In this document: positions 1 to 32,566 of the stretch, in pieces
How the letters are laid out: every line of letters starts with the position of its first letter
How positions within the stretch are numbered: position 1 is the first letter of the stretch
From: Pelodera strongyloides
Lineage: Eukaryota; Nematoda; Chromadorea; Rhabditida; Rhabditidae
DNA length: 64,000 nt
Direction: 5' to 3'
Assembly (NCBI GenBank): GCA_036852015.1
Contig: JAANDG010000370.1
Span: 79,745-143,744, forward strand
The notes under the pieces: model-generated
What the model was told of the DNA's origin: nothing
Database searches by the model: none
The model's input: the letters and a program-made list of their open reading frames with translations, nothing else
Program-made: the position numbers and the translations under genes

Positions 1-696
1 TTCTATGGTTCTATCATCGCGTATCTTTGAGATGTTATTATTATTATATCTGGTTGTGCGAATCCTTACCGCTTATTTTATAAGTACAATTCTTATTTTA
101 GGTTAATGGTAAGGAGTAAATCTCACATTTATCTTTTTCTATTATTCGCCGTCTATTTGGATGTTTTAAGCGAAACAAAAATATGGAAAAGTTCTCAAAA
201 TCACCCACGTTATCACCCGAGGTTTGAATTTGCTTTGTTATTTGACTATGAGAAGTGAAAGTATAATTACGGTCAAAAACTTTTTGTTTTTGTTTTGTAA
301 ACAATAATAACACACAAAAAAATGCACAAAAGTCGCACAAAGCATCGTTCAGAAAGCTGTATAGTGTGTTATATGGTTTTGTGCAAATACGCCAGCTAGA
401 CAACGGCATTTCCTTATATTATATAGTTTCTTTCTGGGCATTTGGCACAGAATGGAAGATCACTGCATACGTGTCATATTGCTTTAAATCGCATGTTTTA
501 AATAAAATTCTTCAGACGTATCTACCGTGTCCATTATGCATCAACTCCAGTCGAAGGAGCCAAAGTCTTCCTTCGTTCACAAAGAAATACAAAACAAGTC
601 GTTCTTTCAGGCAAGATTATTATTTATAAATAAATAAAAGTGTCATTACAGCTTTCGAAATTGCTTCTCCTATGAACGAATTATTCTTAATTTCAG
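1..696. other. AT-rich region, no supported gene
   Basis: I see short open frames on both strands but none has codon content or flanking splice signals that persuade me. The last bases (about 680-696) form a T-rich tract ending in CAG directly before the first coding exon. They could be an ordinary acceptor or a spliced-leader trans-splice acceptor. Confidence 0.4.
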
Positions 697-3600
697 ATGG
701 TCCAAGTTCACTCTCCCGCTCGTCGGGCAGATTTTACCGCAAGATCAACGCCGTTCCCACACACGAAATATCCACCGCGGCAACTCTTAAAAATAGTTTG
801 TCGATCTTTTTTATACCAACATTATTTATTATTTATTATTTAATTTTTCATTTCACTCGTGTTAGATCGATATTCATTCACAGTATCGGTTAAAATTTAA
901 AATGCAGTATATATTTGTGCCTCAATAATATACCAATCCATACTAAATTTGCTCTGAAATACCGTATTTGGAGCCTTTTTTTCTAGATTCTATTCTGAAT
1001 GGACCATCGCACTATAGTGAAGAACGACATCACAAGGTATTGTATAGAGAGTTGTTTTCACTTCTTAATGTACTACATATACAATATCGCTACACGACAG
1101 TATTGTAATGTACACAGTTGGATTCACGCTACATAGGTTATGGACTATGGAACAAAAAACAACGTAAGCTGTCTGTCTCTTACTGAAACACTAGCATCAC
1201 ACTGACTACAACTACTATAAATCTATCAGAGTCACTTATAATAATATTCAAGGATAAGCTAACTTTGGATGAGAAAGCGATGGCCGATGCAAATCTACTT
1301 GCGAAAGGAATGGCCAGGACCACTATGAGAGTCAAGGTAGGGTTTTCTCCCTTTCTCTCTCTCTCTCTTTCTCTCTCTCGCTCTGCTCCCTCTCTCCCTC
1401 TTGATCTCTCTCTCCATTCTCTCTCTCTCTCTCTTTCTCTCTAACTTGATCTCTCGCTCTTCTCTATATCTCCATTCTCTTTATCTCCTTGTCTTTCGCT
1501 TCCAGTAGAAAAATAGTCAAGAACAAATAGATCACCGATAAACAATATTCCATGAAACATTTTGTTTATCACCACTTCATATATCAGATGTTCACTGATA
1601 TCGATGCAACAACCACTCCTCTTCCACAGACGTCGACTACTGTCAAGACCACGACAACCGTACGTTTTTTAAATCAAATTAGTTTTTCTTTGCCGGTTAT
1701 CTATATTTATTACGAGAAATCCTACAATCAACATAATTGTTTTCCTTACTTATTGTTAGCAGTATATAGTTGCACTGGTTTGTTTCACTTTCCTTCAAAA
1801 AACCAAGATTCGAAATAATGAATACCATACATCCACGATTTTTTCCTCCACTCATATCTTAAATGCTAGTTTATTTCTATTCCAAAGATTGATTATATTG
1901 TATTTATGAGTTCCCCTAATTTTGTTTGTTTAGATTGCTGTGCAACAACAAGTTTCTGCTGCTTCGATGCTCCTCAGAGAACAGTTTGTGCATCAGCCCG
2001 CTGCGCCCATCAATATGCCAGTTGAGGTTAAATTTCATGTCTTTCTTACAAAATATAATGAACATTTTGCTTGCACATTGTTTTAATTGTATGCATGTTG
2101 AATATTCCAGGGAAGAGGGATATATTAACACATAAAATGTATATGTAGAACACCACAAAACGTCATAGATTGTATTTTGAACCGATTATACACTATTTGA
2201 ACAACGAAGCAAAATAATGCAATTTAGGGCCCGCGGACGAATCAATACCTGCCTCAAGAGAATGTCCAGCAACAGCAAATGCAGCAACGGCAGCAATTAA
2301 ATGCTTCTCCGCAGCAAGGACAAATTCACTTTAATTCACAATTTGCCGCACAAATCGGAAATGCAATGAATGCATTTGGACAGCAGCAGAACGCACAACA
2401 ACATCAGCTGCAGCAATTTCAACAGAGAAATGCCCAGGGTTCGCATATAACTCAACCGATTATTATTTTATTAGTGCACGCTGGAAATTTCTATTTTATG
2501 TTTTATTAAATTAGCACATCTACAGTACAAAAATGGTTAATTTTTTTATATTATTTATTTTTAAATCCAAATTTATTCAAATTCAGCTTATCTTGCCCTA
2601 GAGTTCACTACTCAAGTCGAAGACATCCGTACTTTGGGTTTCTCAGCTTTACTTGTAACATGTTCCCTTATTTATTTACTAGGTTTTCCCCAAGGCTTTC
2701 CACCACAGCAATTTCAACAACCAAATGGATTCAATCCGCAGCAACAATTTCAACAAGGTGTGCTACAATCTAGTTTCTTTTGTGGACTCAAGTTTATAGT
2801 TGAAGGGGTAGGGGTTTGGTCAGGACTAGGTATATGCTCGTAAACTGATTTCCTACATTAGACTGACTGATAGCAAGAGCTCCTTATATAAATCTTATGT
2901 TTTTCATTTCAGGCCTTCCCCCACAAACCCAGCAGGCCTTGTTCCCGCAGGCTCCCCCGCAACCCCCTCAGAACCAAGGGTTTCCACCACAAGGCCTGGC
3001 TGGTCCCCAGGGAGGACTGGGACTCCAACAAGGCATTCCCAATGCGCAGCAGGAACGATTTCCCGCTGGGAATCAAAATCTGGCTCCTCCTCAGCTTTTG
3101 GGCAGTCAACAACAGATCAATTTGAATCAGAATACTGGGAATCCAGATCAGGTCTGATTTTTGTTTTAAAAGCATAATTGATTAGTGTTCTAAACATGCT
3201 ATTGATATTTTTGATATATATACACACACAAACACTCACATACAACAACCACAGCAAAATCAACAGCGTCAGCAAGTTGGTGGTATGTGTGTTTGTGTGC
3301 ATGTGAGTGAGTGAGATTGTATGTTATTGGGGGCGAGCAGTCTTACTAAAACAACACAACAATACCAATAAATTGTTCGTGTTTTGTCAAACGATAATTT
3401 CTAAAGCGCGACGCTTCGCAAGAAAAATTGCCCGACCCATTCAATTCAATTATCCCTAACTTATTGTCCTCGTGTGTTTAGTCAGCTCTGGGAGGTGGAC
3501 TCCCGCTCGGAGGTCTGCCACCTCAATTCCCACAACTACCACAGCAACCGCCGCAGGTTTTCTTTACAGATGTATACACTTATTTAAAACAAGAAGGAAA

Positions 3601-5313
3601 TTTTACTACCCTAACACTGTCTCACACTAATTGTAAGCAGATTTTCCAGGTCGCACAACTTGCCCTCGGACAATTACCGAACGAGCACTTTGGAAATGCA
3701 ACACCACAGGTGAGTAAAAAGGTCTACTTGCCCAAATATTTGTTTTCACTATTCTCCATTTTCTGTCGACTATTGTTCAACCTTCAAACTATGAATTTGT
3801 CCTTCAGACGCCATATTCACCACTCCGATTCCCTCGGGGAAATATTCCCTAGGGACCGAAAATATCATTCTATGTAAAGTGAGACACGCAGAGAAAAAGA
3901 CGGGGAATTCCCCATGGGGAATTGAGTGGTGAATATGACCTCAGGACTATGGTAGACCATTATTGGTAGAATTCGGCTTTATTGTTTTTCTTTTCAGTTG
4001 ATGGGCGCCACAACTCTTCTCGGAACTGAGGGCGGACAGAGTGGTGGATCTTCCACTGGAATAGGTGGAATAGGTCCGTCTGGTGGACAACTGGGAGGAA
4101 CGGCCCTAGGGACGACACCCGCCCTCAACCTGCAAGGATTCCAACAAGGGTTCCATAACCAGCAGCAGCAGCAGCAGCCGCAACACCAACAACCACAGCA
4201 AAATCAACAGAATCGGCGGCAACAACTATCACAACGGCAGCAAACTCAGCAGCAAATAGCGCAGCAACTCCAACAACAACAATTGTTACAGCAACAAATA
4301 CCGCAGCAAAATCCACTCCAATCGCAGCAACAACAAATATCACAACAGCAGCAACAATTACTGCAACAGCAGCAGCAGCAACTACCACAACAACCACTTC
4401 CAGGTAAGAACACAAGAATCGCTGTCTAACAGTTTTGTTCTAGTCCTCTGCTAGTGGGGGGGGGGATGTAAGTAACGTGTCTTTCATGAATGATAACCTG
4501 TGTCTTCCCAAATTAAGAAAATCAGCAAATTCACCCAACCCAGAGTGGTTTTTCCAGTTCCGACAGTCCCTCCGGCAGACATGGCCGAAGTTCTGGACCT
4601 GGCTCCGCTCAGTTCACAGTCGGCCAATTCCTCTTTAGAAGTACTCGGCTGTGGATGGGATATCATTAGCAATTCATGCAAGGACGTATTCAATATCAAG
4701 TGAGTATCTTGTTAATTCGATCGAAAATAGTGCATATTTATTTGGCCAGTCCATTGTAATTGAAGAACCAAGATTGTTGATGGAAATCTCATTTATACAA
4801 TAGCAAACATTTGGTTGGTGAGAGATTGCTGCGCAGTAGGGTGGAAAAATTATATTAATATTTCCGAAACAGATTCACTGATTGACTGATTCTGGGCATG
4901 CAGGTATCGTCAAACATTTTTCACGTCGCGCATGTATTTCCTAACCATCCGCTTGTACACCACAGTTCAAGTTATGTACAATATGGTTTCCAAGTATGCT
5001 GAAAATTTACCGTATATTTTTTGTTCATATCATATATGCAAGTTTTGTGTAGAAATACGGTAGTATTGACAGATATTACACCGAATTTTTGGGATAATTG
5101 CAAACCCCATAAATGAGCAAGCAGTGTAAACATAATTTTAAATTCGTCATTATTTTCAGTTGGTGTTCTCACTGCCACGATTTTGGCAACGTTTTCCTGC
5201 ACGATTGTAAATGTGTAAATCCTAATTTTGGTGCGATTCCGCGTGCTGTTCTCAAGCAATTGGCCGAGGTTCGAGAGGGTGGAAATAAGACTAGACCACC
5301 CACTTTTATTTAA
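697..5313 (+). CDS. Gln/Pro-rich protein with Cys-rich C-terminus (12 exons)
   Basis: No family was recognised; by composition it resembles the loosely defined nematode prion-like Q/N-rich (pqn) proteins. Exons read as 697-795, 1253-1336, 1588-1659, 1934-2026, 2228-2438, 2683-2757, 2913-3151, 3482-3556, 3650-3709, 3998-4403, 4558-4699 and 5160-5313. All phases join and the total is 1710 nt, giving 569 residues plus stop. The start is the ATG immediately after an acceptor-like CAG, so SL trans-splicing is possible; an unseen upstream exon is the alternative. The N-terminal ~115 residues are mixed sequence. Exons 5-7 are rich in Q, P, F and G, exon 9 is short and mixed, and exon 10 encodes a Gly/Ser segment followed by a long near-pure Gln tract. 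The last ~75 residues differ: six cysteines with CGWDIISNSC, WCSHC and DCKC, then a basic tail. A possible microexon at 3255-3275 (QNQQRQQ) would keep frame but has a weak donor, so it is left out. Confidence 0.8.
1341..1490 (+). repeat. CT-rich microsatellite in intron 2
   Basis: This is an imperfect (CT)n pyrimidine tract directly downstream of the exon 2 donor. It is one-sided (pyrimidines on the + strand) and lies wholly within the intron. Confidence 0.8.
3809..3945. repeat. Short foldback element in intron 9
   Basis: The two ends are inverted copies: CATATTCACCACTC at the left matches GAGTGGTGAATATG at the right. The interior has further palindromic GGGGAATTCCCC-like sequence. It looks like a non-autonomous inverted-repeat element within the intron between exons 9 and 10 of the Gln-rich gene. 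Confidence 0.6.
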
Positions 5314-14062: not shown

Positions 14063-14146
14063 GTATGTATAGTTCGTTCGTCACAATTTCAGTTCCTTAC
14101 GCGACAGTTGTCCTATTGCCTATTGCGTTCATCTTCCAGTTAGTGT

Positions 14147-15270
14147 GTTGCGATTGACCTGCACTCTATCCCGTTTCGTGTATTGCATAACCTTCCATTT
14201 TCGTGCGCGGCGATTGTTCTGCGCACCCTCCTTTATCCCGCGTTGCGTTCATCTTCCATTTACGTGTGCTGCGATTGACCTGCACACTCTCCCGTTTCCT
14301 GTATTGCATTACCATTTCATTTTCGTGCGCGGCGATTGATCTGCGCACCCTCCTTTATCCCGCATTGCGTTCATCTTCCATTTACGTGTGTGTCGATTGA
14401 CCTGCACTCTCTCCCGTTTCCTGTATTGCATAACCCTTCCATTTTCGTGCGCGGCGGTTGATCTGCGCACCATCCTTTATCCCCCGTTGCGTTCATCTTC
14501 CATTTACGTTTGTTGCGATTGACCTGCAATCTCTCCCGTTTCCTGTATTGCATTACCCTTCCATTTTCGTGCGCGGCGGTTGATCTGCGCACCCTCCTTT
14601 ATCCCGCGTTGCGTTCATCTTCCATTTACGTGTGTTGCGATTGACCTGCACTCTCTCCCGTTTCCTGTATTGCATAACCCTTCCATTTTCGTGCGCGGCG
14701 GTTGATCTGCGCACCCTCCTTTATCCCGCGTTGCGTTCATCTTCCATTTACGTTTGTTGCGATTGACCTGCAATATATTGCATAACCCTTCCATTTTCGT
14801 GCGCGGCGGTTGATCTGCGCACCCTCCTTTATCCCGCGTTGCGTTCATCTTCCATTTACGTGTGTGTCGATTGACCTGCACTCTCTCCCGTTTCCTGTAT
14901 TGCATAACCCTTCCATTTTCGTGCGCGGCGGTTGATCTGCGCACCATCCTTTATCCCGCGTTGCGTTCATCTTCCATTTACGTTTGTTGCGATTGACCTG
15001 CACTCTCCTCGGTTGATCTGCGCACCCTCCTTCATCACATATTGCGTCTTGTACATTACATATTGCGTACTACTCTCATTCACGTGTGCGGCGATTGAAC
15101 TGCACTCGCTCCCGTTTCATACAGTTTATCACACTCCATTGTCGTGCGCGGCGATTGAACTGCACTCGCTCCCGTTTCATACAGTTTATCACACTCCATT
15201 GTCGTTTCATCGGCGCACCCTCATGTATCCTATATTGAGTTCCATTATCGGGTGCGGCGATTGATCTGCA
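14147..15270 (+). repeat. Tandem array, ~61-bp monomer in ~122-bp dimers
   Basis: About eight dimers with starts near 14149, 14269, 14392, 14514, 14637, 14758, 14868 and 14988. Each dimer has a GCGATTGACCTGCACTCTC half and a GCGGTTGATCTGCGCACCCT half, which are themselves diverged copies. The final ~200 bp (from about 15088) switches to a 60-bp monomer repeated almost exactly (GCGATTGAACTGCACTCGCT), then degrades. The array ends about 170 bp upstream of the ATG of the 26-exon gene. Confidence 0.9.
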
Positions 15271-15440
15271 CGTCCTTCCACATCTTATATTGCGCTTAAC
15301 TGTCTGCTTTCTATGCCGTGTCTAAAAGGTGATGTTCGCTCATCGTTGCGGGTTCAACTAGTAAATGACTATGTATCGTGGCTGATTTCAATGTGGCGAA
15401 CAAATGGCTCAATACGTTCTTCCAGCAGCTGTCAATCAAT

Positions 15441-18400
15441 ATGAGCGGACCCGATGCTGCCCAGGGAAAAGGCCAAGGTGATGGAGGTCGTATGGGGTGT
15501 GGACCGCACTCACCCACCCAGATTTACGACGCTCCCACCGAGGCCGAGTACCAAATGGAGCACATCTCCACGGCCGCAATTAAAAACAAATTGGAGACGG
15601 CAAGTGTTTGCTTTTACATTTTTTATTTCCTTAGTTCTCTTAGTTTCCACTGAATTTAATTGAATGAATTCTTGTGGAAACAACCACCGCAAAAGTGTTG
15701 TTATGACCCAATTTAGCTGAACATTCTTTATAGATTAGACGATTGTAGTTCAAAATAAGAATGTGTATCAAAACCTTCGTCATGGTTTACTTGATTTCTT
15801 ATTGATAATATATCTATGCATTTTAGTATGAGCAGGATCATTACCTGGCTCGCGTCATCCAGGGCCGAGCGCTCAACGTGTTTAAGATGGAGATCACCTG
15901 CTACCTATTGGCTCGTCAAGTCTTCAAAGGAGAGAATGTGGTGGGCCTTCTAATCTACTACTCTACTATGACGATTATTTTTGCGCGATGCTCGCAAATA
16001 AAATGAAACCATTATTTTGACTCGGTTTTGCTCGTACTTAGTTAACTAATACGACATCCCGCAAGTACGGAAATTTGCTAGGAAACGCTATCTTAATTCT
16101 CTTTCAAAGCGAAATACCGGCCGGTTTTTGAAGCGCATCTCAAGTACTTACATTCCTATGCATTTATGCGAAGTGGGGGTCTAATTGGGATCTAGTTTTT
16201 ATTCTAATTTTTGCTCATTTTCATATGCTGCATAAGAAAGCAGGTGTACGTAATGCGTTTCGAAAACCGGCCGATATTTCGCTTTAATATTTTGTTTTAG
16301 GTGGAAGCCGTTGATTTGTTCGAGACGGTCTTCATGGAGGCGAAAGTTATGGCCAAATATCTGGATGTGCCCGATACGGGGAGGCTTTGGGCCAGTCTTC
16401 AATCAGCCATAACCAGAGTAAGTAACTCATGTTTGTTTTATGGTTCTTATTGTTAGTTTGTGTAAGTAAAAGTGATCTGACACTCAAAAGTGTCCTCCAA
16501 GTATTCCGTACAGAAAAATTGCGCTCCAAAAGAGTGAACTATTTTTAACAGTTATCTTTTAACAGAATAGCTTCAATACATTTGACTTGAAACTTGAAAC
16601 GTTGCGCAGTCGTAACAAAATGTAGTGCAAAGTCCTTGTTGGCGCTCTTGCAGCGTTAGTCTCCATGCGCGTCAACCGCCCGCCGCGCCAATCATTTGTT
16701 AGTAAGTGTCCTCTGAGTGAATTTTGCCAATAAGAAATATATTATAAATTGTTTCTATTTAGTTTCACAACAACGACTGGGACACGGTCACGGCCGTGTT
16801 CAACTTCAAGAGGGCGTTCGGGGCCGCGAACCTTGCCGTGACGATGTTTGAGCCTTTGATGGTTCACGCGAAGGAAGTTGATGCCCAGGCTGAGAGACTG
16901 GTACTAAGTTCTCACTATCTTTTAGCAGTTATTTGGTTGTCTGAGCATTGTCTTTACGGCTGAACTTGAGCAAGAATATGAGAGTGTTAGACCCCCTCCG
17001 GTCACCCACACGAAGCTAATTTTCTAATTTTCGAAGCTAAGTTATTTCAGTATTTAGTATTTGAGTTAGGTGTTTTGTTCTAAGAAGTTTTGTTGCATGA
17101 TAAATATATCATGTATAGTACTTTGAGGGAAGGCCTAGATTTGCAAGCTGTTCCACCAATCAAAAGTTTTTTTTCTTTTATGTTCTTCATTTTTAGTTCC
17201 AAGCAGTCTACATGGAATGTAAGCGGTTTCCCGAAGATTTCGAACTCGGAAAGAGGCCCAAGCGAGGTTAGTTTATAAATATAGAATGCTAGTTAACAAT
17301 CAATAATCGGTGGCGTTTGCAATTGCCTAACTGTAAGATGTAAAATATTTCTCAACTTCTTGCAACGTTTTAAATTTATAGTATAGAAGCCTAAATAAGT
17401 TTCTTCAAGTATAGCTGAAAACAAACATACGCTATTCAAATGACAGCAAACAGTTTGTTCCGCTACATATTCGCTCCACCGTTACTAACAATTTTGCTTT
17501 AGTCCCCAAGCCGAAAGATCTCACCATGTCGTCCGTTACAGGAGCTACAGGTGTGTACTGATTTTCTTTGCATGTATTGCTTGCAGAAATTCAGTTATTT
17601 GATACCAGACGGCTATCGCCGCTTGAGGCGACTTTCCAATGCTACACGGGCGATATTTATGTGTACTCACGAACGGGTATGCTTTCATGAAACAGAGCTG
17701 AAGCGCATCTTCCAAATTTGATGCGATAAGATTCGAGGGCCTTTATTGAAGAGTTGCGAAAAATATACGCTGCCGACATTGAAACCTTTCTCCTTTATAT
17801 AATAAGTCACTTTTCAAAAACCGGTCGTTGTGTCGCTTTAATAACAATTTGTGCTCTTTCAGATGAGTCGTGGTCATCTGACTCCTATGATAGCGACGGT
17901 GATGACGGGAGAGACGTGCCAGCAACCACCACACCAAACACTGATAACGGTAAGGGAACAGGAAAGGGCGCAGACAGCCAAACTTTTATTCGCTTATGAG
18001 AATTGTTCCGTAAATTATATGAAAATAAGAGAGTGTCTGTCGTGTGGGCCTCTATGTTTCCTTGTGTGTTCTAGTATGTACGAGTGAGTCTGTAATTTTG
18101 TGCGCGCGATCTGTCTGCGCATGTGTTCATGAGTTCGCCCTGGATGTGAGCGTTTGTGCGTGAGTGCACGTGAGTGATGCGCATGTGAGCGTGCGCGTGT
18201 AACTTTAAGGGCGTATACGGCTTGTGTGCTTATTTGCGCAATTGTGCGCGATGTGTGATATGCGTCGCGTGCGCGAGAGTGGGTGAGTAATTTTCTGGGC
18301 GCAATGTGTGTGCGTATGTGTGCACGAGCGCGCCCGGATGTGAGTGGGCGCGCATGATGTATGGCGCATGTGCCTTGCTTGGGGCGCATGGCCCTTGCGT

Positions 18401-21400
18401 GTGACCGCACATATGCAATTGTGTGCGCTATAATTGCGTGTGTGGAATGTGTGTCTGTGATCACAGTGTATGCACCCCAAGGCGCGAGGGCGCGCGAGCC
18501 ACGCTATGTGCTGATATGTGTGGGTTGCTTGAGTGAGGGAGATATGCGCTTGTCTTCAATGCAACGACTGGGCGACGATTACCAGTACACGGGTGTAGTT
18601 GGATAGAATTCAATAAATTACCCTTAACCGTGTTTTAATAGGTGGTCCGACTGAGGAAAAAAGAGGGGAGCGAAGTAATGGCCGCTCACCCTCTTGTGCC
18701 ACCGCCGTATCTCTCCACGACTCGAATCATCCAGCTGCTGATCCTGCTGTGGCTCCCGAAGACTTCTTGGACGTCTCGACCTTCCCAGCACCCGCACCTT
18801 CCATCGCGGATCCGCAACAACAACTTTCCGGTAAGTTTCGTTTGCGAATGTAGTTTTAATTAGTGAGAATGTCGCAAGAGCATGCAGTATAGGCCAAGAA
18901 GGATTGCAGTCTCTTCAAATTCGTTTTTTTTTTACTTCAATTATCCATACACATGAAAAAGCAAATAGAAAAATACCATTCCGGTGTCAATCTACTGAAA
19001 ATTTAACCAAGGGAAAGAAATCCCCTCGGTTGTGTTTTGATAAGGTACAGTATGACAAAGACAACAGACAGTAGAGCAGACACTTTCCCTCTTCCCCGGT
19101 TTTTCTTTGTATTGTCATGTTTTTCCCTGTGATAAATTTTCCGTAAATTGACATTGAAAAAGGTATTTTTCTAGGTATCTTTTTATATTTATTGATAAGT
19201 GAAGTAAAAAGACGATGATGAGGTGACCGCGATTCTTTAAGCGCAATTTGTTCCGATACCAGTGTTTATTTCTAATAATTTGTTATACCATGCAAACAAT
19301 GGGAAGATCAGTTGATAAATATGATAAACATGGTTCCAAAGCTCAATTGTTATTTGAAAGCGTTTATTGGGATGGGTGGAATAACTTGCAGAGAGTGTGC
19401 TGCTCTAAAAGATTATCTTTAGATTCGGTTAACCCTTACATCGTGGGTGGCGGCGAGGGGCTTCGACGTCTGCACCAACTTCTCGACCAGGACTTCAACA
19501 CCCAGCCGCCTGTACTCACTCCCGGTAAGAACTAGCGAATACTAGAAATTAGTTTTGTGTATTAAAGATAAAAAGATAAAGAGTACCGTGTTATAACAAC
19601 CTAATCCGCAGGTGCACCGGGGTCCGGCTCATTTCTGAAGCCAACGAACTGGCCTTTAAAGGGAATGTTGGGCTCAAAAAAAAAAAGCTTATGTTTTGAA
19701 GGTGAGGAAAGTGAAAATAAAAATAAACAAAACTTTCATGTAAGAAGAAAAACAATTTCAAACCGCGCCAAAAAACTCCTTCACTATGGGATTCGAGTCG
19801 TGCGGACAGAGCTAAGCCAAATCTCTGTCCACGGGACGTTTGAATTTACGAGGCTGTTAGACAGCGAAGAAAAAGAGGAGGGCGTAAGAGAAATTTTTGA
19901 AGTCAGCAAAGAAAAAGAGGAGGGCGCGAGAGAAATTGTTTAAACTACGGTATTTTGGACAGCGTGTTATAGAATATCTGTGAATCAGGCTTGACATTCG
20001 TTTTAAACTTCCCGGAGGCCAATCTTCTCGGGGTCGGGAAGCCGATTTTTCTCCGCCAGTTTTACCCAGCCACCAATTTTGACACCTTTGATGGTGTGGA
20101 GGGGTTCCGGGCCGGTATCGAACCAACGACCGGTGGCCTGGAGCAAGGCGCTTGCGCCACGCTTCCTCCGTTTGTGTATTGCATCGTATAAAAATAAACC
20201 AACGTCACAAATTGGCAATTGAACTATTTCGACAATCGAACGTACTTGTATGGACTAATATGTGCTTTTTTAATCTGTACAATAAGTTCATTACCTAATG
20301 TCCATCGTTTAGAATCGTCGATCTTGTCTGGGTGGTACGAGCCTCTAGCCAATCAGAATGCCCAAGATACTGCAAGGTCGATTGTAATTGACACTGGCTC
20401 GTTTACGTTCTCTTCGCTCAGGGTCCCGGGTCAGTAGTTTTTTTTTACATCTCGTTTTTTTTTGCTGAAAAAAAGATATTTTTCTCTGGACATATGTGCA
20501 TTTCGCAACCTTCATTCACCGTTTTTTATAAAGAAGAAACCGTGTTCTAGATTTGGACGGCCTTCTCGGTGTCGGTGACGAAGGAATGGACATCGTCCAG
20601 GATGTACAGGACCGTGAAGTCGACTTTGATAGAGGAGTTTTTGGTAACAGATACTTGTTTTGTGTTTCCAATTTAGACGATTTAGAACACCGTCTATAAA
20701 AGGCAGTTATTAAAGGGACAGGGCCACGGGAAAAATAATTCCTCAATTTGCTTGCACAGAATGTCCGGAATTTCAGAAATATTACTGTAAAAAATCGCGT
20801 TTCTTTGCGTCTAGTACTCGTAGAGTTATTTTTACGCCTTGTCATAATCGTAGTAATGATCTTCATTTGTTTAAACATTACTATGCAAAGAAAGATTGCA
20901 AATGGACGGATATAAACCGTAAAAATGTATTTTGACGTTGCTGACTACAGTAGCTGGCCGAACAGTACAAGTAAATAAATTGAGAAATATTTTTCGTCCC
21001 TTTAACTGGCCATGTAAAAAGCCATGTAAAAAGTGCAAAAATTTCTAAAAAGAAACAACTATATATGTCACTTGCATCCACATAGGACTAACTAATATGA
21101 CCAAGAAAGACAATTTAAGTATTTTAGCTTACATTTGATTGGTTGATGCTTTTCATTTTAGATGCCGAACCCTTGGATAATGGCTCGGCCGAGATGGATA
21201 TGGACGCAAGTGTATTGGATAGGAATGGGAATTGTACGTCACATATCAATACCAAGCTCTTATTAATTGACCTGTTATTTCTTGTAAACTATATAAAAAA
21301 CGTATTTCATTTCAGACACCCGCATGGACGATATTCTGATGGGCGAAAGCAGTGAAGAGTTCCTGGATAGGATTGCTAGAGAAGGAAACCGGAAGAGTAA

Positions 21401-21408
21401 GAATTCTA

Positions 21409-21467
<59 letters not shown>

Positions 21468-24400
21468 ATATATATATATATATATATAATATATATATAT
21501 ATATCATGGAAAACGAAAAACCCCGATTTCGCAGCGATCAAGTGCCTTAAAAAATCGGGCATTGATCCGGGCGAAATCGGGGTTTTTGGAGAAAAATCGG
21601 GGCGAAATCGGGGTTTTCTGAAAGAATCGGGGTTTTTCGGAAAATAACCTGGGGTTTCACTTTCCTGTGACTTTACTTTGTACTTACCTACTTTGATGCT
21701 GACTAACAGTTCCAATGGATTCACTAATTATTCTGCAAAGAATAACATTTAGGATCCCTGGAGATGCACCCGCTGGATGACTTGTTTGTGGAAGGTCGCT
21801 CCCGTGTCAAGAGAAGATGCGCTCAAGAGCGTACAGCGGATTATCTGGGTATGAAGTTTTAATTTATCACCAGCGGACATAGACCCTAGGGCAATTGTAT
21901 ATAGACCAATTGCATTCTTGGCCGAGGTTGTGTTGCGCGGTTGAATTCCCCAAGCAAGGCACCGCGCAGGTTACCAACCACGCCATTGGGTCCACCCCCT
22001 CTGCCGCAGTACTCGTCTGACTACGCCCGCACTCCCAACGGCGCGGCTTGCTTTGCGCGCACTCCAATTTGCGCGCATGGTGCTCGGTGCGCTGCGCATC
22101 CGGGAACGTAGTTTTTTCAGTTCTTTGCATCTCATTTATGACCGGGAGCTGGAAATACGTTACAATTTGTTTTCAACGAACCAGTTTTTATGCGTTGTAG
22201 TCGGAATTCAAATTTATATAATTAAGGTCTGGACGAGGAGCGCGTGGAAGGAAGCCGATCAACTCACTCCGGTAGAGTTATTTTTTCCTTAGCACCTTTG
22301 TATTTGATCTAAAGTTGTTTTTTCGAAGTCTGCAGATTCGGAAAGCCTAGTTTGCTAAAAAGGAAAAGCCTGTCAGATTATCTTTTTAGGCTGCATATTC
22401 AATCATTCATTTGATTATTATTAATTCAGACACCGATTTCGACGTGAATGGACAGGAGAGCAACCACGTGCAATTGGGTGAGTAAATTGTAGACTAGATG
22501 GATAGTGAAAGTCAAGGAAATGGAACACGAAAATGTTGACATTTTCTCAGAATATGAACTAATTCCACCTGAATATAACCATCGTTTTGCATCCTACGGC
22601 CTTTTCACTTGCTTAGTCAGGTTTCTTGCTTTATTAGGCGATGGGGCTACGCTGTGCAAAATCGTATTCCTTGAGTACAATTGCATTACCCGGTGGCTTG
22701 CGATATTCAACACCGTAATTATGGAAGCTTAGAGAAAAATGGCTCTAGTTTATCAGCAAAAGCAAATGTTTCCATTTTATTTCGAGATTTGGTATCACAT
22801 TTAGATTCTTCAGTCGAAAAGAAAAAGAAAAAGAAGGGAATCTGGAGTCGAGTGAAGTCGATCTTTAAGAGGAAAAAGGGTAGGAAAACTTCGGCGTTAT
22901 GTAGAAGGAAATGTACTACACTGTATGAATATAATCATAGACAATATAAAAGTAATATGACATAATTTTATCAATAGTCTTGTGGCAAACAGTGACCGGA
23001 ATAGTAAATAGTACAGCGTTTTTCTAGTGACGTAAACAGATTCAAACTGTGTGAAATGAAAAGAATTGTATAAGAGTGTCTGCTTTCATAGTAAACGGAA
23101 AGAGTGTTACCACTTACGTATAGGTGACTCCATTGGTGCACCACATTTCTAATTGTAATTATATATTTTCAGCTCCCAAGAGTGATGTTTCTTCGGGCAA
23201 GAAGGCTGCTCCAAAAACAAGACCTGAGAGTGGTTCGTTTCAGAGAAATACGCGTTATTCTTCCGAAATTTGTGTAGTGTTATAGAAATGAGCATTTTGA
23301 CTTCAAATAGTCAAGATTTCTTGTTCGGCTCGATTAGTTAATCACCAAACGACACTTGCAACGAAAAAAAAATACTTACGATGAAACAAAATTGCGCTCA
23401 TTGTCCTACTTCTAACAGTTTGTTTTCTATTTCAGTTGTAGCAGAAGAGACTACTGCCGCCGGTCGTAAGGCACACAAGAGAAGTAAGAAATTTCATTTA
23501 TTTAAGTTGAGCCACAGCTTTAGAGCGAAATACGCGAGAGACCCAGATACAGTTATAATTGCATTTTTTTGAATTTGGACTGAGTCAATCGAGTAAAGGT
23601 AAATATATTTTAGGCTTGACACTCGACATAGAAGACGTCGTTCCAGTGAGCCCGACAAAGAGATCCAGAGGAGAAGACGACCATTCAGTCTCCGGTTTAG
23701 GTAAGCAGAAACTAGCATAAATTCCTGTAAATCAGCTTCCAAATCAATAGTCACTCGATTGCAAACTGGATTACTGATTAATATATTAGTTCACGGAGCG
23801 ATTTTCTGGTTTTCCAAAAAAAAACCAGTTCCTAAACAAATTTGTGGGAAATGAGGGATCAGGCAAAACAAAATTCAAAATAAAATCACATTTAGCGAGT
23901 GAATAGGTGTCAAGTGTAGAGTGTAGTTCCGCGTCATCGCCGCGCACAAAAAGAGGGGTTTTTGCGGTGCGCAGCAGGTGCGCCAGAACATTGGGCGCTC
24001 ACGTGGATCACTTGGGGCGCCCCTCTCGCGCGCGCTGCGCATCAACTGGAAGGAGGTTCGCTTTTGGGCCAAATGGAGCTGCTCGCTTGTACGCTCTGGC
24101 GGACCCGCATTTTGTTCGCGGCGATAGTGTTGTGTTTCAATTTCTTTCAGATAATGTTCATTATTTAGAAGCAGAGCTCCCTTATGAATTCGACACTATG
24201 ATTGTGCGAGGCTACATGCACGGCGCGGATCACTACTGTATGTATTTCGTTTTCCTATTTGCTTAAAAGAAAACAAAAAGCTGCTATTCTTTTCTAAAAC
24301 GAAATAATATGAATTGTCGTGTGCAGGCAATAGTAGCCCCCAACTAAAAAGAGAAAGACATTACAAAATTTTTAAATATTGTTTTTAATTCTACGCGGAT

Positions 24401-24739
24401 TTTCTTTCGGCTATTTCATATCTTTGTGTTTCAATACACAATCAGCTCAGCACTATTGCATTCAGTTCATTGTTTTAAATGACTTCAGTTTCCGACCTTC
24501 CCACCTCCGATGCCCGCAACGTTGGACCTGGTAAGCAAACATTTGTTATTATCTTTCATCTATCTTTTTGCTTATTTTTCGGTGAATGGTATTGTATGGG
24601 CTTAAATTACGAATGCTTTGTAATTTAGCGGAGTCCACACCTGTCCAAAGTGAAGCCGCCTGCTCCTTCGTAACCGACTGTGAGTTTTTGAATGAAATTA
24701 AGTTATCTGTCTCTGGCCGCTCTCTCTGTGTTCCCCCCT

Positions 24740-24792
<53 letters not shown>

Positions 24793-25927
24793 GAATAGAC
24801 GACTCTCTCTCTGTCTCTGTCTCGCTTTCCCCTACACACGACTGGTTCTCTCAGGCGTGACTCTCTCTCTCTCTCTCTCCCTCTTCTCTTCATCACAATT
24901 ATCTTGAAAGTTGTCCAATCAGATCATGCATTTTTCCTTTTCAGCTGATTGTGCATCGCCTCGAACTATCGTCAGGGATGTCACACTCACTGGTTTGTTA
25001 TCATTTTTCTAATTTTCATTGACTAATGACATTGACGGTAAAGTTTTTCAAAGCGTAACAAGACAAAGTGACATTTTTACCGGTGCATTCTGAGTAGGTG
25101 CATACCCACCTGCCTAGGTGCGTGAAGCTGGACCTTGACTTGTGATTTTACCTTTATGTAATTTATTTTCTGTATTTCTTAGAGTCCATCGAGGAGTCCA
25201 TCGACAGAGTGCATGGAGTCGTGGACACAGTCGAGCAACTGATCGCCACAGTTGCCAACGCACTCGAAGGTTTTCACTAAAAAAATTTTTTTAAAAATTT
25301 GTTTTACGCTTCAATAGCGTGCACCTTAATTCAAGGGAGTTCAAAGTACAATTTCAAGGTTTGCTTATGACATGTTCCGCAGAGGTCCTGAGCAGTAGGC
25401 GAATCGATTCACTTAATATTACTCGAATATTTTGAATATCTTACTCGAATATTTTTGGTACAGCACTATGCGGTGCACCCTGTATCACCCTGTATCTAAC
25501 GTATAGTAATGGTGCAAAAATTTTTAGGACCTCCTGAAGCCGAGCCGAGCGACTCTGCTGTAGAATTTATGAGACATGGTTTGTTTTGTAACTCAATTTC
25601 TTAGCTAACAATATTGGCCATCTTAACTGTTTCTAGTGTTCTTGTTGCTTATTAGTTGTTGAATTCCGGTGGAAAAGTATGCATTCAATGGGCTAAAAGT
25701 GCGGAGAAATTAAACAGCCCGAATCTATTTTCCTTGTGTACCAGATACCAATCCTATACCTATAGATTGCCGAAGTTTCATTTTATTTGCTAGTTTCTTG
25801 TTTTAGTTGCATATACTGTAATCTTTCAGTGAGTCAATTGTTGGGCATCAACTTGGACCTGGACCGATCTGATCCCTTCGACTTCATCGGGGACGGAAGG
25901 GCTTCGGAACTGCCAAAAGAGGATTGA
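15441..25927 (+). CDS. 26-exon protein, helical N-terminus and acidic disordered remainder
   Basis: I recognise no family. Exons: 15441-15599, 15827-15940, 16301-16417, 16763-16900, 17197-17266, 17503-17550, 17863-17949, 18642-18830, 19423-19524, 20313-20429, 20551-20643, 21162-21233, 21316-21396, 21753-21848, 22430-22477, 22814-22879, 23173-23232, 23436-23483, 23614-23700, 24151-24237, 24489-24530, 24629-24679, 24945-24992, 25183-25269, 25528-25578 and 25830-25927. They total 2256 nt (751 residues plus stop) with every phase matching. The first ATG follows a CCAG acceptor-like site. Residues ~50-200 look alpha-helical (for example EMEITCYLLARQVF-type amphipathic stretches, written here approximately). 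The rest is short, mostly acidic or Ser/Pro-rich exons. The exception is exon 16, a Lys-rich segment (EKKKKKKGIWSRVKSIFKRK) that could be nuclear-targeting or membrane/nucleic-acid binding. Exon 24 (SIEESIDRVHGVVDTVEQLI) is predicted helical. No signal peptide or membrane segment is seen. Introns 1-4 are phase 0 and introns 5-25 phase 1. The first intron appears to use a GC donor. Confidence 0.85.
16106..16287. repeat. CCGGCCGG foldback element in intron 2, next to the exon 3 acceptor
   Basis: The left end AAAGCGAAATACCGGCCGGT is matched by the inverted right end ACCGGCCGATATTTCGCTTT. The element ends 13 bp before exon 3 (16301), so host sequence between them is little more than the acceptor tract. 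It shares its AAAGCGAAAT terminus with the longer foldback family at 40.0, 51.2 and 63.6 kb. Confidence 0.8.
17550..17862. repeat. Intron 6 with a possible partial CCGGCCGG-family end
   Basis: Near the 3' end of the intron, AAAAACCGGTCGTTGTGTCGCTTTAAT resembles the right terminus of the 16.1-kb foldback element. I did not find a matching left end, so it may be a decayed or truncated copy. As at exon 3, it lies close to a splice acceptor (exon 7 at 17863). Confidence 0.35.
18040..18500 (+). repeat. GT/GC-rich alternating purine-pyrimidine tract in intron 7
   Basis: Roughly 450 bp of degenerate GTGTGCGCG-like sequence. Long open frames on the - strand here (His/Thr/Arg repeats) are a by-product of this composition. 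Alternating purine-pyrimidine DNA of this kind can adopt Z-form. Confidence 0.65.
20005..20175 (-). pseudogene. tRNA-derived SINE-like element in intron 9
   Basis: On the - strand the segment 20098-20170 reads like a tRNA. It starts with GGAGG, has GTGGCGCAAGCGCC in the D-arm position and GGTTCGATACC as a B-box near the 3' end, and ends with CCTCC complementary to the start. A ~90-bp non-tRNA stretch follows (down to about 20005 on the + strand). That layout fits a SINE head and body, though a single copy in this window does not prove it. Confidence 0.5.
20709..21006. repeat. AAAGGGA-ended foldback element, decayed copy
   Basis: The left end TTAAAGGGACAGGGCCACGG and interior TTGCACAGAATGTCCGGAATTTCAGAAATnTTAC match the element at 41141-41552. 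The right end TCGTCCCTTTAA is the inverted terminus. It lies within intron 11 of the 26-exon gene. Confidence 0.7.
21414..21503. repeat. TA dinucleotide microsatellite
   Basis: A near-pure (TA)n run in intron 13. It is followed (21515-21645) by several copies of AATCGGGGTTTTT and its inverse, which can form short hairpins. Confidence 0.9.
21905..22100. repeat. GC-rich islet in intron 14
   Basis: Contains GTTGCGCGGTTGAA, GCACCGCGCAGG and repeated TTTGCGCGCACTCC / TTGCGCGCATGG motifs, resembling the GC-rich family at 12.1, 24.0 and 27.5 kb. It is embedded in an intron and has no coding support. Confidence 0.5.
23928..24125. repeat. GC-rich islet in intron 19
   Basis: Begins CATCGCCGCGCACAAAAAGA and ends TTCGCGGCGATAG, so the termini are inverted ATCGCCGCG copies as in the 12.1-kb and 27.5-kb relatives. 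It ends about 25 bp before exon 20. Confidence 0.6.
24725..24890 (+). repeat. CT-rich microsatellite in intron 22
   Basis: Two (CT)n blocks separated by mixed pyrimidine-rich sequence. Like the tract in the Gln-rich gene, the pyrimidines are on the coding strand. Confidence 0.85.
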
Positions 25928-27944: not shown

Positions 27945-30900
27945 GCGGGCGTCCTGCGAGAAGATTGGCACCCGCAGGACGTATTGCCAAAACCAACTAT
28001 GTCAAAGTCAAATCAGCAAAGACCCCGAGTTCCGTGCGCCGCAAGGCAGGGGTGCTATAGCAATCTCACGGCCGTAGGGAACCATAATTTTTCCTATTTT
28101 CATATATCTACGTTTAACGCCCGGACGCTGCACAAGGACGCTGATGTCGATCAGTTGATCGGCGAGCTCGATAATGTGAACGCTGGCACCGTTGCTATCC
28201 AAGAGACGCGGTCCAAGGAGAGCAAGTGCAAGACCTGGCACAGTGGCCATCGTGTACTCATTGGAGCCAGAGAGGAGAGGTCGAGGTCTGGCGGTGTGGG
28301 CTTCATAGTCCCCCCAGAATACCTGCCATATGTCAGCGATATGAGAGCAGTCAGCCCGCGTGTGGCGGTCCTTCATGGCGAAGTGAAACGTGTGACATTC
28401 ACCGTTGTTAACGTGTACGCTCCCACCAGCGAGTATGACGACGAGGTCGTGGAGGAGCTTTATGACGACATTGAGCGAGAACTGACGAACAGTCGTGCAC
28501 ATGTCAAGCTTGTCGTCGGTGACTTCAACGCGTCCATCGGTCCCAGGGACGATGGGGAGACGTACGTTGGGCACTACGCTGCAGACACCCGTAATGACCG
28601 TGGTCAACGGCTAGCAGATTTTGCGGAAAGTCAGTGCATGTACGTGTTGAACACCATGTTCCAACAACGAAAGCGTAGACTTTGGACGTGGCAGAGCCCG
28701 CAAGGTGCAAAGAAACAGCTGGACTATGTCCTTTGCAACGACGCCCATCGGGTCGTTGACTGTAAGATCGTCGGTAGAAGCTGGTGCGGCTCAAGTTCAG
28801 ATCACCGCTTGGTCAAGTCCATCATCAACTTTGGTTCTGTTAAGTTCAGAAGGCGCACCTCCAGGCGTGGAGACGTTGATCCGGGTCTAGCCCGTGCTAT
28901 AATGAACCAAGTGGACTGGTCGAGGTACGGTTCACCTCAGTCGTACTCCGAACTGAGCCGGGAATTGGCGAGGGCATCAGCTGAGGCAAGGCCGGTCATT
29001 CATGCTCATCCTAGAGAAAGACTGACGTCAAAGACCATTGAATTGATCCGTGAGAGACGAAAAAGGCTACATCAGGGTCAAAACGTACAGAGCCTCAGTC
29101 GCGACCTACGAAAGATGGTTGAAGCAGACTATAAGAGCTTTAACGAGGTTAAAGCTCTCGAAGCGGCCGAGCGTCTTATGTCCATAAAGAAAGTACGCCA
29201 ACGCTATTCCTTGCATAAGGAGGCAACTGTGGCCATGATGGACAAAGACGGTACTTTGAAGACCAAGATCCAGGATATTGCCGATATCATCAAAGATTTC
29301 TATGGGGATCTCTTTGCTTCGAAGAAGCGTGTTCCGAAATCAGGCATTGAAGTGAATGAGGACGTGCCGGAGTTCTTGGAGAGCGAGGTTGAACATGCTT
29401 TGAAGAGAATGCCTAATAACAGGGCTCCTGGCAATGATGGCATTTCCATTGATCTCCTCAAGTACGCTCCAAAGTCCGCTCTATCCGCGGTTTGCAGGTT
29501 GTTCAACAATATCCTCTCAATGAAAATCGTCCCTGAGAACTGGAAAGGTAGTAACACCATCCTGATCCACAAGAAGGGAAGCAAAGAGGACATAAACAAC
29601 TATCGTCCAATTGCGTTGATGTCACAGCTGTCAAAGCTGTTTTCTCGCGTCATCTTGAACCGAATCAGCAAGTGGCTGGAAGAAGGCAATAGAAGAGAGC
29701 AGGCAGGCTTTCGAGGCGGGTACTCGACTATTGACCACATTCACACTGTGTGTCAAGTTATCGAGCGGTCTAGGGAGTACAAGATACCCCTCTGTATGTT
29801 GTTTGTCGACTTCAAGAAGGCGTTTGATTCGGTTGAGAAGCAGGCGGTCCTCAATGCTCTGAAACATCACGCAGTGCCAGAGAGATACGTGTCTATGATA
29901 GACGAGCTGTATACCCAGTGTGCCACGGACATCCAACTCCTTCATACACCAGTTACGGTGCCCGTTGAGCGCGGAGTCAAACAAGGGGATGTCATTTCAC
30001 CCACTCTGTTTTCTGCTTCTCTGGAATGTGCTTTGAGAGACGCCAACATGTCCGGTGGTTATGACATTGACGGCGAAACACTACAGTTCTTACTGTTTGC
30101 CGACGATGTGGTTCTTATAGCCAAAGACCCATGTACACTGCAGAAAAACCTAGACGAACTAATTCGAGTAACGTCGCTAATCGGTCTTGAGGCCCACCCA
30201 GGCAAGACGCAGTGGATGGCTAACGATTATTGTCCAAACGGCGGTGCAGATATACGCATTGGCAACAGCACGCTCGAAAAGGTCGGGAAGTATGTCTACC
30301 TTGGACGCGAGGTTAACCCCAGCAACAGCCTCACCGCCGAACTCTCTCGGCGTAAACAGTCTGGGTGGAAGGCTTTCTGGAAGCTACGAGATGTACTCAC
30401 CAATGTGAAGCTGTCAAAAGAAGTGAAAGCCAAGGTGTTTAACACGCATGTGCTGCCAGCAATGACCTATGCTTCCGAAACTTGGTGCACGACAAAGAAA
30501 GACGAAGAATCCTTACTTGTCACCCAGAGAGCCATGGAGCGTAAGATGGTAGGCACGCGTCTCCGGGATCGTATGTCAAACGTCACACTTCGAGAAAAGT
30601 CCGGCGTAGATGATATAATTGATAGGATATACAGCTCGAAACATCGATGGGCTGGTCATGTCATTCGTAGAAATGACAATCGATGGACCACTCGGGTCAC
30701 AGAATGGCGTCCCCGCGATTACAAGCGTCCTCAAGGGCGACCGCCAACGAGATGGGCAGACCCGATGGTTAAATCATTTGGACGTGCATGGAATCGCATC
30801 GCAAGATGCAGGTCTTCATGGCGTAGTTGCGACCTGCGCTGTTGGCGAGCCAACAGCTGATATAACGGTCTTCAAGGTATTCAAGGTAAGGTATTAAAGG
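27945..30900 (+). mobile_element. RTE-clade non-LTR retrotransposon
   Basis: Defined by the intact ORF 27999-30860. The 5' boundary is uncertain and may include GC-rich sequence before the ATG. After the stop there is a short run of GGTATTCAAGGTAAGGTATT, which may be the simple 3' tail typical of RTE elements. I could not identify target-site duplications. Confidence 0.8.
27999..30860 (+). CDS. RTE-type retrotransposon ORF: AP-like endonuclease plus reverse transcriptase
   Basis: A 953-residue uninterrupted protein from the first ATG. The N-terminal ~270 residues are an exonuclease-endonuclease-phosphatase domain: STFNARTL near residue 40, IQETRS, NVYAPTSEYD, GDFNAS near 175 and SSDHRLV near 265, matching the Asn, Glu, Asp and His positions of the family. 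The reverse transcriptase follows, with RAPGNDGIS, NNYRPIALMSQLSKLFSRVI, QAGFRGGYSTIDHI, FVDFKKAFDSV near 602, GVKQGDVISPTLF and LLFADDVVLIA near 697 (the catalytic Asp pair). The C-terminus has HRWAGHVIRRNDNRW and RPQGRPPTRWADPM, common to RTE proteins. These elements copy by target-primed reverse transcription, the endonuclease nicking and the RT priming from the nick. Length, domain order and lack of gag-like ORF1 all fit RTE. No disabling mutation is visible. Confidence 0.95.
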   Translation: MSKSNQQRPRVPCAARQGCYSNLTAVGNHNFSYFHISTFNARTLHKDADVDQLIGELDNVNAGTVAIQETRSKESKCKTWHSGHRVLIGAREERSRSGGVGFIVPPEYLPYVSDMRAVSPRVAVLHGEVKRVTFTVVNVYAPTSEYDDEVVEELYDDIERELTNSRAHVKLVVGDFNASIGPRDDGETYVGHYAADTRNDRGQRLADFAESQCMYVLNTMFQQRKRRLWTWQSPQGAKKQLDYVLCNDAHRVVDCKIVGRSWCGSSSDHRLVKSIINFGSVKFRRRTSRRGDVDPGLARAIMNQVDWSRYGSPQSYSELSRELARASAEARPVIHAHPRERLTSKTIELIRERRKRLHQGQNVQSLSRDLRKMVEADYKSFNEVKALEAAERLMSIKKVRQRYSLHKEATVAMMDKDGTLKTKIQDIADIIKDFYGDLFASKKRVPKSGIEVNEDVPEFLESEVEHALKRMPNNRAPGNDGISIDLLKYAPKSALSAVCRLFNNILSMKIVPENWKGSNTILIHKKGSKEDINNYRPIALMSQLSKLFSRVILNRISKWLEEGNRREQAGFRGGYSTIDHIHTVCQVIERSREYKIPLCMLFVDFKKAFDSVEKQAVLNALKHHAVPERYVSMIDELYTQCATDIQLLHTPVTVPVERGVKQGDVISPTLFSASLECALRDANMSGGYDIDGETLQFLLFADDVVLIAKDPCTLQKNLDELIRVTSLIGLEAHPGKTQWMANDYCPNGGADIRIGNSTLEKVGKYVYLGREVNPSNSLTAELSRRKQSGWKAFWKLRDVLTNVKLSKEVKAKVFNTHVLPAMTYASETWCTTKKDEESLLVTQRAMERKMVGTRLRDRMSNVTLREKSGVDDIIDRIYSSKHRWAGHVIRRNDNRWTTRVTEWRPRDYKRPQGRPPTRWADPMVKSFGRAWNRIARCRSSWRSCDLRCWRANS

Positions 30901-31447: not shown

Positions 31448-32566
31448 TCAGATCATGTGGGTGTCTACCCAAGCGCAGAGATATTTAGTACTGATACCAT
31501 ATTTATGTGTGATTATAGGGTATTTGTGGAAAGCTTTTTTGAATGTTGACGTAATAACTAGAACTGGGTACGCATTACTTAGTAGTTTTTTGTAAAATTC
31601 TTGTATTTTAGTTTTAAAGTTAATAAGAGATGAAGTACATCTATGTATTCTTATGAGTTCACCTTGTATACAGTTTATTTTGATGCGGTTGCAGATGGAA
31701 CTATCAAACATTGGAAAGCGTATAACTTCAAACGTGTAATCGTCTGTTTTGTTATACAGATTAACCGACCATCTCTCTATGGATCTGGTGAGAAAAAGGT
31801 CAAGGAAAGCGGCTGAATGGTCGTTAGTATTAGCCGGTTCCAAACTAAGGGCATCAGGATACATGTTGATAAATCGGGTAGCTAATGTGTCGTCATTATA
31901 GAAGATTGCTATGTCATCCATATATCTGTGTATAGACAAATGATAGCTGAGAGCGTTATTAGGAGATTGTTTGAAAAAATTGAATTTGATCATGGCTAGT
32001 GAAAGGTCAGCCAAAAGCGGGGATGCGTTACCCCCTTGTGGGACCCCTATAACTTGATGGAATAATATGTCTTGAAAGATAAGGTAACTATTTTTAACTA
32101 TATATTTAGTTATATGTTTTACTTCATTTCTAGAATAGCAACTGTCGGAGAGAATGTCCGTATAGTATGTATTTTTAAAACCAACATTAATAAAGCTCTT
32201 AACCGAGTTATTAAAACAGAGATCTATTAAAGCAAAAATGTTATCTATAATACAAGCATGAGGAAGGCTGGTGAATAGACTGCTAAAGTCGACTACCTTT
32301 ATCTTTTTAAATCTATGGATTCTTGTGGAATTGGTGAGAGACAAGGAGTTATCTATAGAGATAAAGTTAAATTTTTGTGTATTCCAGTTATTACTAGCAT
32401 TACAGTAGTTTCTAAACTGGTTACGGAAATGCTTCAAGATCTTTTGCAAAAGTATAGCAGGATTTTTCAAGGAACTATGTTTCGCCGCAGTGATGAATCG
32501 CATTTTAGCTGTCTTTTTATGAAGCTTAGGAACTCCGTAAATATTGGGGAGTTTTCTGTTGAATGT
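31448..32566 (-). CDS. Penelope-like reverse transcriptase, 5'-truncated
   Basis: The frame is open from an in-frame TGA at 32567-32569 to the stop at 31448-31450, about 372 residues; the first Met is at 32503. Just upstream of that Met the frame reads YGVPKLHKKTAK, then RFITAA, the motif preceding the RT core in Penelope-like and related metazoan reverse transcriptases. Core motifs are VVDFSSLFTSLPH (residues ~70-82 from the Met), GVPQGGNASPLLADLSL (~153-169) and RYMDDIAIF (~193-201). The C-terminus HKYPIITHKYGISTKYLCAW fits the end of this RT group. The N-terminal third expected in such proteins is missing, and I see no GIY-YIG endonuclease downstream, so it is a fragment or an endonuclease-less form. 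The adjacent RTE lies on the opposite strand and is unrelated. Confidence 0.8.
   Translation of the reverse strand, partial: TFNRKLPNIYGVPKLHKKTAKMRFITAAKHSSLKNPAILLQKILKHFRNQFRNYCNASNNWNTQKFNFISIDNSLSLTNSTRIHRFKKIKVVDFSSLFTSLPHACIIDNIFALIDLCFNNSVKSFINVGFKNTYYTDILSDSCYSRNEVKHITKYIVKNSYLIFQDILFHQVIGVPQGGNASPLLADLSLAMIKFNFFKQSPNNALSYHLSIHRYMDDIAIFYNDDTLATRFINMYPDALSLEPANTNDHSAAFLDLFLTRSIERWSVNLYNKTDDYTFEVIRFPMFDSSICNRIKINCIQGELIRIHRCTSSLINFKTKIQEFYKKLLSNAYPVLVITSTFKKAFHKYPIITHKYGISTKYLCAWVDTHMI

Follow-up and report, generated by a model that had tools for sequence, protein, structure and literature searches.

The stretch of DNA analyzed here (the window) comprises 64,000 nucleotides of Pelodera strongyloides contig JAANDG010000370.1 (assembly GCA_036852015.1, positions 79,745 to 143,744) and carries on its plus strand a gene that, rebuilt from sequence, runs from an ATG at position 15441 to a stop codon ending at 25927 and encodes 768 amino acids in 27 exons. 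Introns 1 to 4 are in phase 0, and introns 5 to 26, 22 in succession, are all in phase 1. The 21 internal tail exons are all of class 1-1 and divisible by 3 in length (42 to 189 nt, mean 77). A first-pass annotation had reported a run of 21 phase-1 introns and 20 internal class 1-1 exons, within a 26-exon model of 751 residues. The place of the run, the gene, and its frame stand, but the model is 17 amino acids, or one 51-nt exon, short; by arithmetic, the exon missed is either 24629-24679 or 25528-25578. Both are conserved in two paralogous copies of the gene, C795 and C309 (amino acid identities of 62 and 57%, respectively, for the former exon and 88 and 53% for the latter), and the run therefore comprises 22 introns and 21 internal exons.

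Exons are numbered 1 to 28 after an initial 28-exon model, with number 10 left vacant by the rejection of that exon; all lie on the plus strand. Exons 1 to 5 (15441-15599, 15827-15937, 16301-16417, 16763-16900, and 17197-17266), separated by the four phase-0 introns, encode a conserved N-terminal domain of about 198 amino acids. Two sites in this part are weak or unusual, as intron 1 has a GC donor and the donor of exon 2 scores only 0.1. The ATG is preceded by a probable spliced leader trans-splice site, where the acceptor TTCCAG ends at 15425 and is followed by a putative leader at 15426-15440. An AG resembling an acceptor is found 15 nt upstream of the ATG in the window, 11 nt upstream in C795, 9 nt in C309, and 7 nt in a third copy, C153; as these lengths differ modulo 3, a further coding exon upstream is unlikely.

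The tail begins with exons 6 and 7 (17503-17550 and 17863-17949), which have counterparts in C795, C309, and C153, exon 7 being acidic and serine rich. These are followed by exons 8 and 9 (18642-18830 and 19423-19524), the latter located by hand in C309, and by exons 11 to 14 (20313-20429, 20551-20643, 21162-21233, and 21316-21396), among which exon 12 is present fivefold in C795 and exon 13 was found in the window copy only. Exons 15 to 17 come next (21753-21848, 22227-22271, and 22430-22477), with exon 17 also present in C309 and in a fourth copy, C187. Exon 18 (22805-22879) encodes a strongly basic module resembling a nuclear localization signal (NLS) and has counterparts in C795, C309, and C187. 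Exons 19 to 25 (23173-23232, 23436-23483, 23614-23700, 24151-24237, 24489-24530, 24629-24679, and 24945-24992) have paralog counterparts as well, that of exon 19 in C795 being a weak possible one only and that of exon 20 in C795 sharing 36% identity. Exons 26 and 27 (25183-25269 and 25528-25578) are 53 to 88% identical in C795 and C309, and the last exon, 28 (25830-25927), which contains the stop codon, is 87% identical to C795 and 77% to C309. Splice sites in the tail mostly score well.

The former exon 10 (19612-19701, plus strand, in frame) was dropped as repeat derived and for its weak acceptor (0.7). Approximately its first two-thirds fall in an interspersed repeat (19600-19660) with 41 matches, the window itself included, from scoring the best 40 of 307 candidates; a further repeat piece at 19665-19846 matches another place at 92%, and by tblastn the exon was not found in C795 or, in gene order, in C309. 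Matches on C8 and C1159, which belong to the same repeat, were rejected as family members. A different repeat, of which about 40 further genomic copies were scored, lies in intron 6 (17590-17765). A short intronic element at 16100-16292, with inverted CCGGCCGGTTTT-type ends, is also found in a C795 intron, is 87% identical to one C795 copy, and is probably a miniature inverted-repeat transposable element. Upstream of the gene, 61/122-bp and 60-bp tandem repeats (14122-15205) end about 235 bp before the ATG, and related repeats lie upstream of the C795 copy.

The family was sought across the assembly (1171 contigs totaling 159.9 Mb), the queries being the proteins of the window gene, C309, and C153; only the best candidates were scored, so that the number of loci is a lower bound. 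We identified at least four further loci, two near complete (C795 and C309) and two partial (C153 and C187), and thus at least five with the window gene. In protein alignment, the window product is 70% identical to that of C795 and 43% identical to that of C309; over exons 1 to 5, identity is 77% with C795, 42% with C309, and 46% with C153. C153 contains exons 1 to 9, 11, and 12 (the last two weak) and C187 exons 17, 18, 21, and 22; neither was accepted as a full gene, since no more exons were found even after the flanks were extended. C641 gave a single weak match (E 0.14).

The curated gene models read 0,0,0,0 followed by 22 (window), 23 (C795), and 20 (C309) consecutive phase-1 introns, but their exon lists were picked partly with a phase-1 filter and include uncertain exons (7b and "14?" in C309), so that they do not constitute independent evidence of phase. 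The same caveat applies to the differences in exon length, which are all multiples of 3 over 23, 23, and 11 exons shared with C795, C309, and C153, respectively. A fairer test is given by spliced alignment with a site matrix from the window gene and phase left free. Phase 1 was then assigned to each of the 24 tail introns of C795, a count that includes some introns around forced exons of 3, 9, and 12 nt. In C309, it was assigned to 18 of the 20 introns lying no more than 3 residues from a window exon boundary; one exception lies beside a forced 1-nt exon, and the other closes exon 9, for which a GT donor located 4 nt upstream would yield phase 1. In C153, five introns of the tail coincide with window boundaries upstream of residue 420, all five in phase 1, and the remaining alignment is noise.

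As the gene was first spotted by eye, from sequence alone, it could be asked whether it is a chance chain of splice-like sites with no gene behind it. Exon-by-exon conservation in the paralogs, purifying selection, and length changes that preserve frame refute this for practical purposes, as does a control in which non-overlapping chains of open class 1-1 exons with strong sites were counted per 10 kb. The density is 21.0 on the plus strand of the gene (18 in 8,564 bases) and 19.9 and 15.4 in the tails of C795 and C309, whose antisense strands give 1.0 and 3.9; 16 of 17 control rows lie far lower than the gene, at 1.0 to 7.4. The other row, at 13.3, is the plus strand of the region directly upstream (L060, C370:70000-79744), which seems to contain a different exon-rich gene; its class 1-1 candidates are rich in Gly, Met, Pro, and Gln and may extend into window positions 1-5000. 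Two points temper this control: the splice site matrix was derived from the window gene itself, and class 0-0 exons are likewise denser on the gene strands (10.5 per 10 kb for the window, 13.9 for C795, and 5.1 for C309), as a number of short exons have more than one open frame. The first-pass annotation had called such a run very improbable if all three phases were equally likely. In Caenorhabditis orthologs, according to PMC11230420, more than half of the introns are in phase 0: with phase 1 below 0.5, 22 consecutive phase-1 introns would have a probability below 3e-7 if independent. As exon duplication breaks independence, this figure is a description and not a P value.

Such duplication is observed directly. 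In C795, exon 12 occurs as a tandem array of five copies, of which one has 75 nt and four have 93 nt, each preceded by TTATAG and followed by GTAAGA, with self-matches over more than 300 bases, introns included, at 74 to 85% DNA identity and a pooled ratio of nonsynonymous to synonymous substitution (dN/dS) of 0.50. Duplication of symmetric exons happens in this gene family. The earlier proposal that class 1-1 exons can be skipped or duplicated without a frameshift is supported with respect to duplication and loss, as seen in C795, where exon 12 is multiplied and exons 13 and 17 were not found, the donor-side flank of exon 13 alone aligning there, at three places.

Selection was estimated between paralogs, not orthologs, by a counting method with Jukes-Cantor correction and 1000 bootstrap replicates. 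Against C795, dN/dS is 0.24 for exons 1 to 5 (bootstrap 0.15-0.38) and 0.27 for the tail (0.21-0.35), and none of the 1000 replicates reached 1 for either part. Against C309, the values are 0.38 and 0.16, with dS saturated and that of the tail set to the maximum of 3.0. Exon 28, at 0.06 and 0.07 against C795 and C309, ranks with the best conserved parts of the gene. The tail as a whole is under purifying selection, and selection on single exons is compatible with the paralog comparison. The characterization of the gene as rapidly evolving is not supported overall by these values.

The same data bear on the idea that the tail generates isoforms. As all 21 internal tail exons are frame neutral, combinatorial skipping of many of them could yield a large predicted protein repertoire, and a few sites score low (the exon 8 acceptor at 3.4 and the exon 16 and 26 donors at 2.7). 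That most tail sites score well and that purifying selection extends across the tail argue the other way, and we consider a role mainly as an isoform generator quite unlikely.

The predicted protein is hydrophilic over its first 35 residues; its highest 19-residue hydropathy mean is 1.13, and no transmembrane-like stretch was seen, as judged by hydropathy only. The charge-hydropathy index is -0.04 for the tail versus 0.15 for the N-terminal core, and basic, NLS-like clusters recur in three copies. Composition further suggests that the protein is probably located in the nucleus, is disordered in its tail, and folds at its N terminus into a helical domain. Pfam returned no family for the window protein at E ≤ 1, and hence no recognized SCP domain; for the N-terminal part, the best Pfam value was E 0.15, in one of four members, and the best PDB value was E 0.45, with no profile match, and nothing reached significance. 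A protein database yielded no relative at E ≤ 10. This is a weak negative for intron-rich genes, because the control, an adjacent open reading frame (ORF) of a long interspersed nuclear element (LINE), matched nine proteins at E ≤ 1e-10, of which seven were unnamed products of ENA contigs, and spliced nematode genes may be missing. The suggestion of a lineage-specific protein is not contradicted by this search, in a database poor in spliced genes.

These features do not suit the first-pass view of the gene as effector type. Were it a secreted micro-exon gene, like the schistosome micro-exon genes (MEGs) or the aphid bicycle genes, small exons of one phase would be expected, as in the bicycle genes described in PMC9168663, and the lack of relatives outside this genome in the searches made would fit as well. 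Against this stand the hydrophilic start, with a start-codon context common to four copies; the NLS-like clusters; and the absence from three models of Cys-Tyr-Cys (CYC) with spacers of 2 to 15 residues, which is our own loose pattern and not the published motif. The tail dN/dS of 0.27, the five loci found (a lower bound), and the mitochondrial gene order ND4-COX1-COX2 point in the same direction. Secretion as an effector is therefore very improbable.

The reading we favor, with a probability of roughly 55%, is that the gene encodes an intracellular, probably nuclear protein, in which a conserved N-terminal domain (exons 1 to 5, with phase-0 introns) is joined through a modular tail to a very conserved C-terminal segment, encoded by the last exon. 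The coding exons, borders and phases common to the paralogs, purifying selection, and the fivefold presence of one exon in a paralog are demonstrated. The tail, about 570 residues from the 21 class 1-1 exons, would evolve as intron-bounded exons of this class are duplicated and lost; once its introns were in phase 1, later duplicates would all be in phase 1 too, because only exons with equal entry and exit phase keep the frame. A similar origin of the older tail exons is a proposal, the window gene itself being without clear internal similarity. Each exon would contribute a short, charged or motif-like module, acidic or basic and NLS-like, to a probable flexible scaffold with both ends fixed.

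Several observations weigh against this reading. Downstream of exon 5, free-phase alignment of C309 gives 28 introns, of which 22 are in phase 1, four in phase 0, and two in phase 2. The disorder index of the tail is near the boundary, with several exons scoring as ordered, and the NLS-like clusters are patterns only. Per-exon dN/dS, proposed in the first-pass annotation as a check, exceeds 1 in two cases (1.14 for exon 12 against copy 12a and 1.26 for exon 23 against C309), values that are noisy, with dS saturated in several exons. Duplication is demonstrated for one exon of one paralog alone, and exon-to-exon comparison within the window gene gave 3 of 253 pairs at P ≤ 0.005, where 1.3 would be expected, and the rejected exon 10 takes part in one of these; as a test of internal exon ancestry, this gave no clear signal.

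This last result would be expected if the run had not arisen by exon duplication at all and a long ancestral stretch of the tail had instead been split by intron insertions favoring phase 1 at proto-splice sites of a biased coding sequence, with the exon 12 copies late and separate. Indeed, 17 of the 22 codons split by phase-1 introns begin with G, the base favored before a donor, and both an excess of class 1-1 modules and the proto-splice explanation of phase 1 are discussed in PMC8001218. That argument predicts glycine, but only 3 of the 22 split codons encode it; the commonest class in Caenorhabditis is phase 0, as given in PMC11230420; and the copies of exon 12 in C795 are an actual case of 1-1 duplication. 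Intron insertion is possible, though doubtful, as the origin of the run.

Elsewhere in the window, an open 958-codon LINE-type ORF (27984-30857) encodes endonuclease and reverse transcriptase domains and is 99% identical to a protein predicted from an ENA contig, and a minus-strand ORF (31451-32503) has a reverse transcriptase match below the Pfam cutoff (E 1.1e-5). About 11 kb (52194-63492) consist of satellite repeats nested in one another, their periods including 56, 129, and 158 bp; satellites and simple repeats also dominate a translated similarity plot. The mitochondrial stretch of the genome contains ORFs resembling ND4, COX1, and COX2, in that order on one strand, COX1 being assigned by Pfam and ND4 and COX2 tentatively; the arrangement is canonical for chromadoreans and differs from the one known for cyst or root-knot nematodes. 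COX1 matches contig C892 three times, in both orientations, which may reflect a concatemer or an assembly artifact. The spliced leader SL1 has 460 matches in the genome at no more than one mismatch, versus none for the reversed control pattern, which identifies the source as a nematode. Among the matches listed, 19 SL1 copies form a tandem array on contig C26 (1276-12412), with a spacing of mostly about 600 bp.

Placing the gene beside known systems gives additional insight. In tropoelastin and the PEVK region of titin, many symmetric exons of one phase likewise encode long flexible stretches; the likeness to them is in exon plan, and their composition looks different. Bicycle genes, described in PMC9168663 as putative gall effectors, carry CYC motifs and number about 121 homologs in the pea aphid; their internal exons are small and numerous, and nearly all of them begin at codon position 2, which corresponds to phase-1 introns. 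The architectural likeness to them noted in the first-pass annotation is confirmed by the 22 consecutive phase-1 introns, although the first four introns here are in phase 0; the hydrophilic start, the lack of CYC by our loose pattern, the five loci found, and purifying selection set the gene apart. Schistosome MEGs, according to PMC4350168, are coded mostly by very small symmetrical exons, have a signal peptide on all products and high dN/dS, and are apparently restricted to platyhelminths. Here, the 21 internal tail exons are symmetrical, but at 42 to 189 nt they are not very small; the gene differs further in its nonsecretory-looking start (by hydropathy), its tail dN/dS of 0.27 between paralogs, and its occurrence in a nematode. 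The same source describes VAL-6, which belongs to the VALs without a signal peptide and in which a conserved domain is combined with a portion coded by very small symmetrical exons; the joining of a domain to a symmetrical-exon portion is common to both, and the SCP domain is not recognized here by Pfam. The KQY/KHI cassette effectors of the pea aphid (PMC7495047) are reported to be assembled from many miniature exons, with alternative isoforms, and to diverge downstream of a signal peptide that is conserved among them, whereas the conserved N-terminal part here does not look secretory. In the literature searched, no nematode case was recognized as this gene family, which is no proof of absence.

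It could be speculated that a nematode independently evolved a family of exon cassettes like those of bicycle genes and MEGs, though with an intracellular, nuclear product acting as a combinatorial scaffold with many tails and fixed ends; duplication, as of exon 12 in C795, and perhaps alternative splicing would shuffle its frame-neutral exons. In this full form, the idea is unlikely. Architectures of small exons in a single phase have been discussed mainly in connection with secreted effectors and with shuffled domains of extracellular proteins. A run of 22 phase-1 introns together with purifying selection and no sign of secretion would make such an architecture an unreliable mark of effectors, and would mean that growth by symmetric exons can also build the tails of internal proteins; caution is therefore warranted, and effector calls should not be made from gene structure alone. 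In conclusion, the gene resembles a bicycle- or MEG-type cassette gene in architecture and, by the features tested, is a member of neither family.

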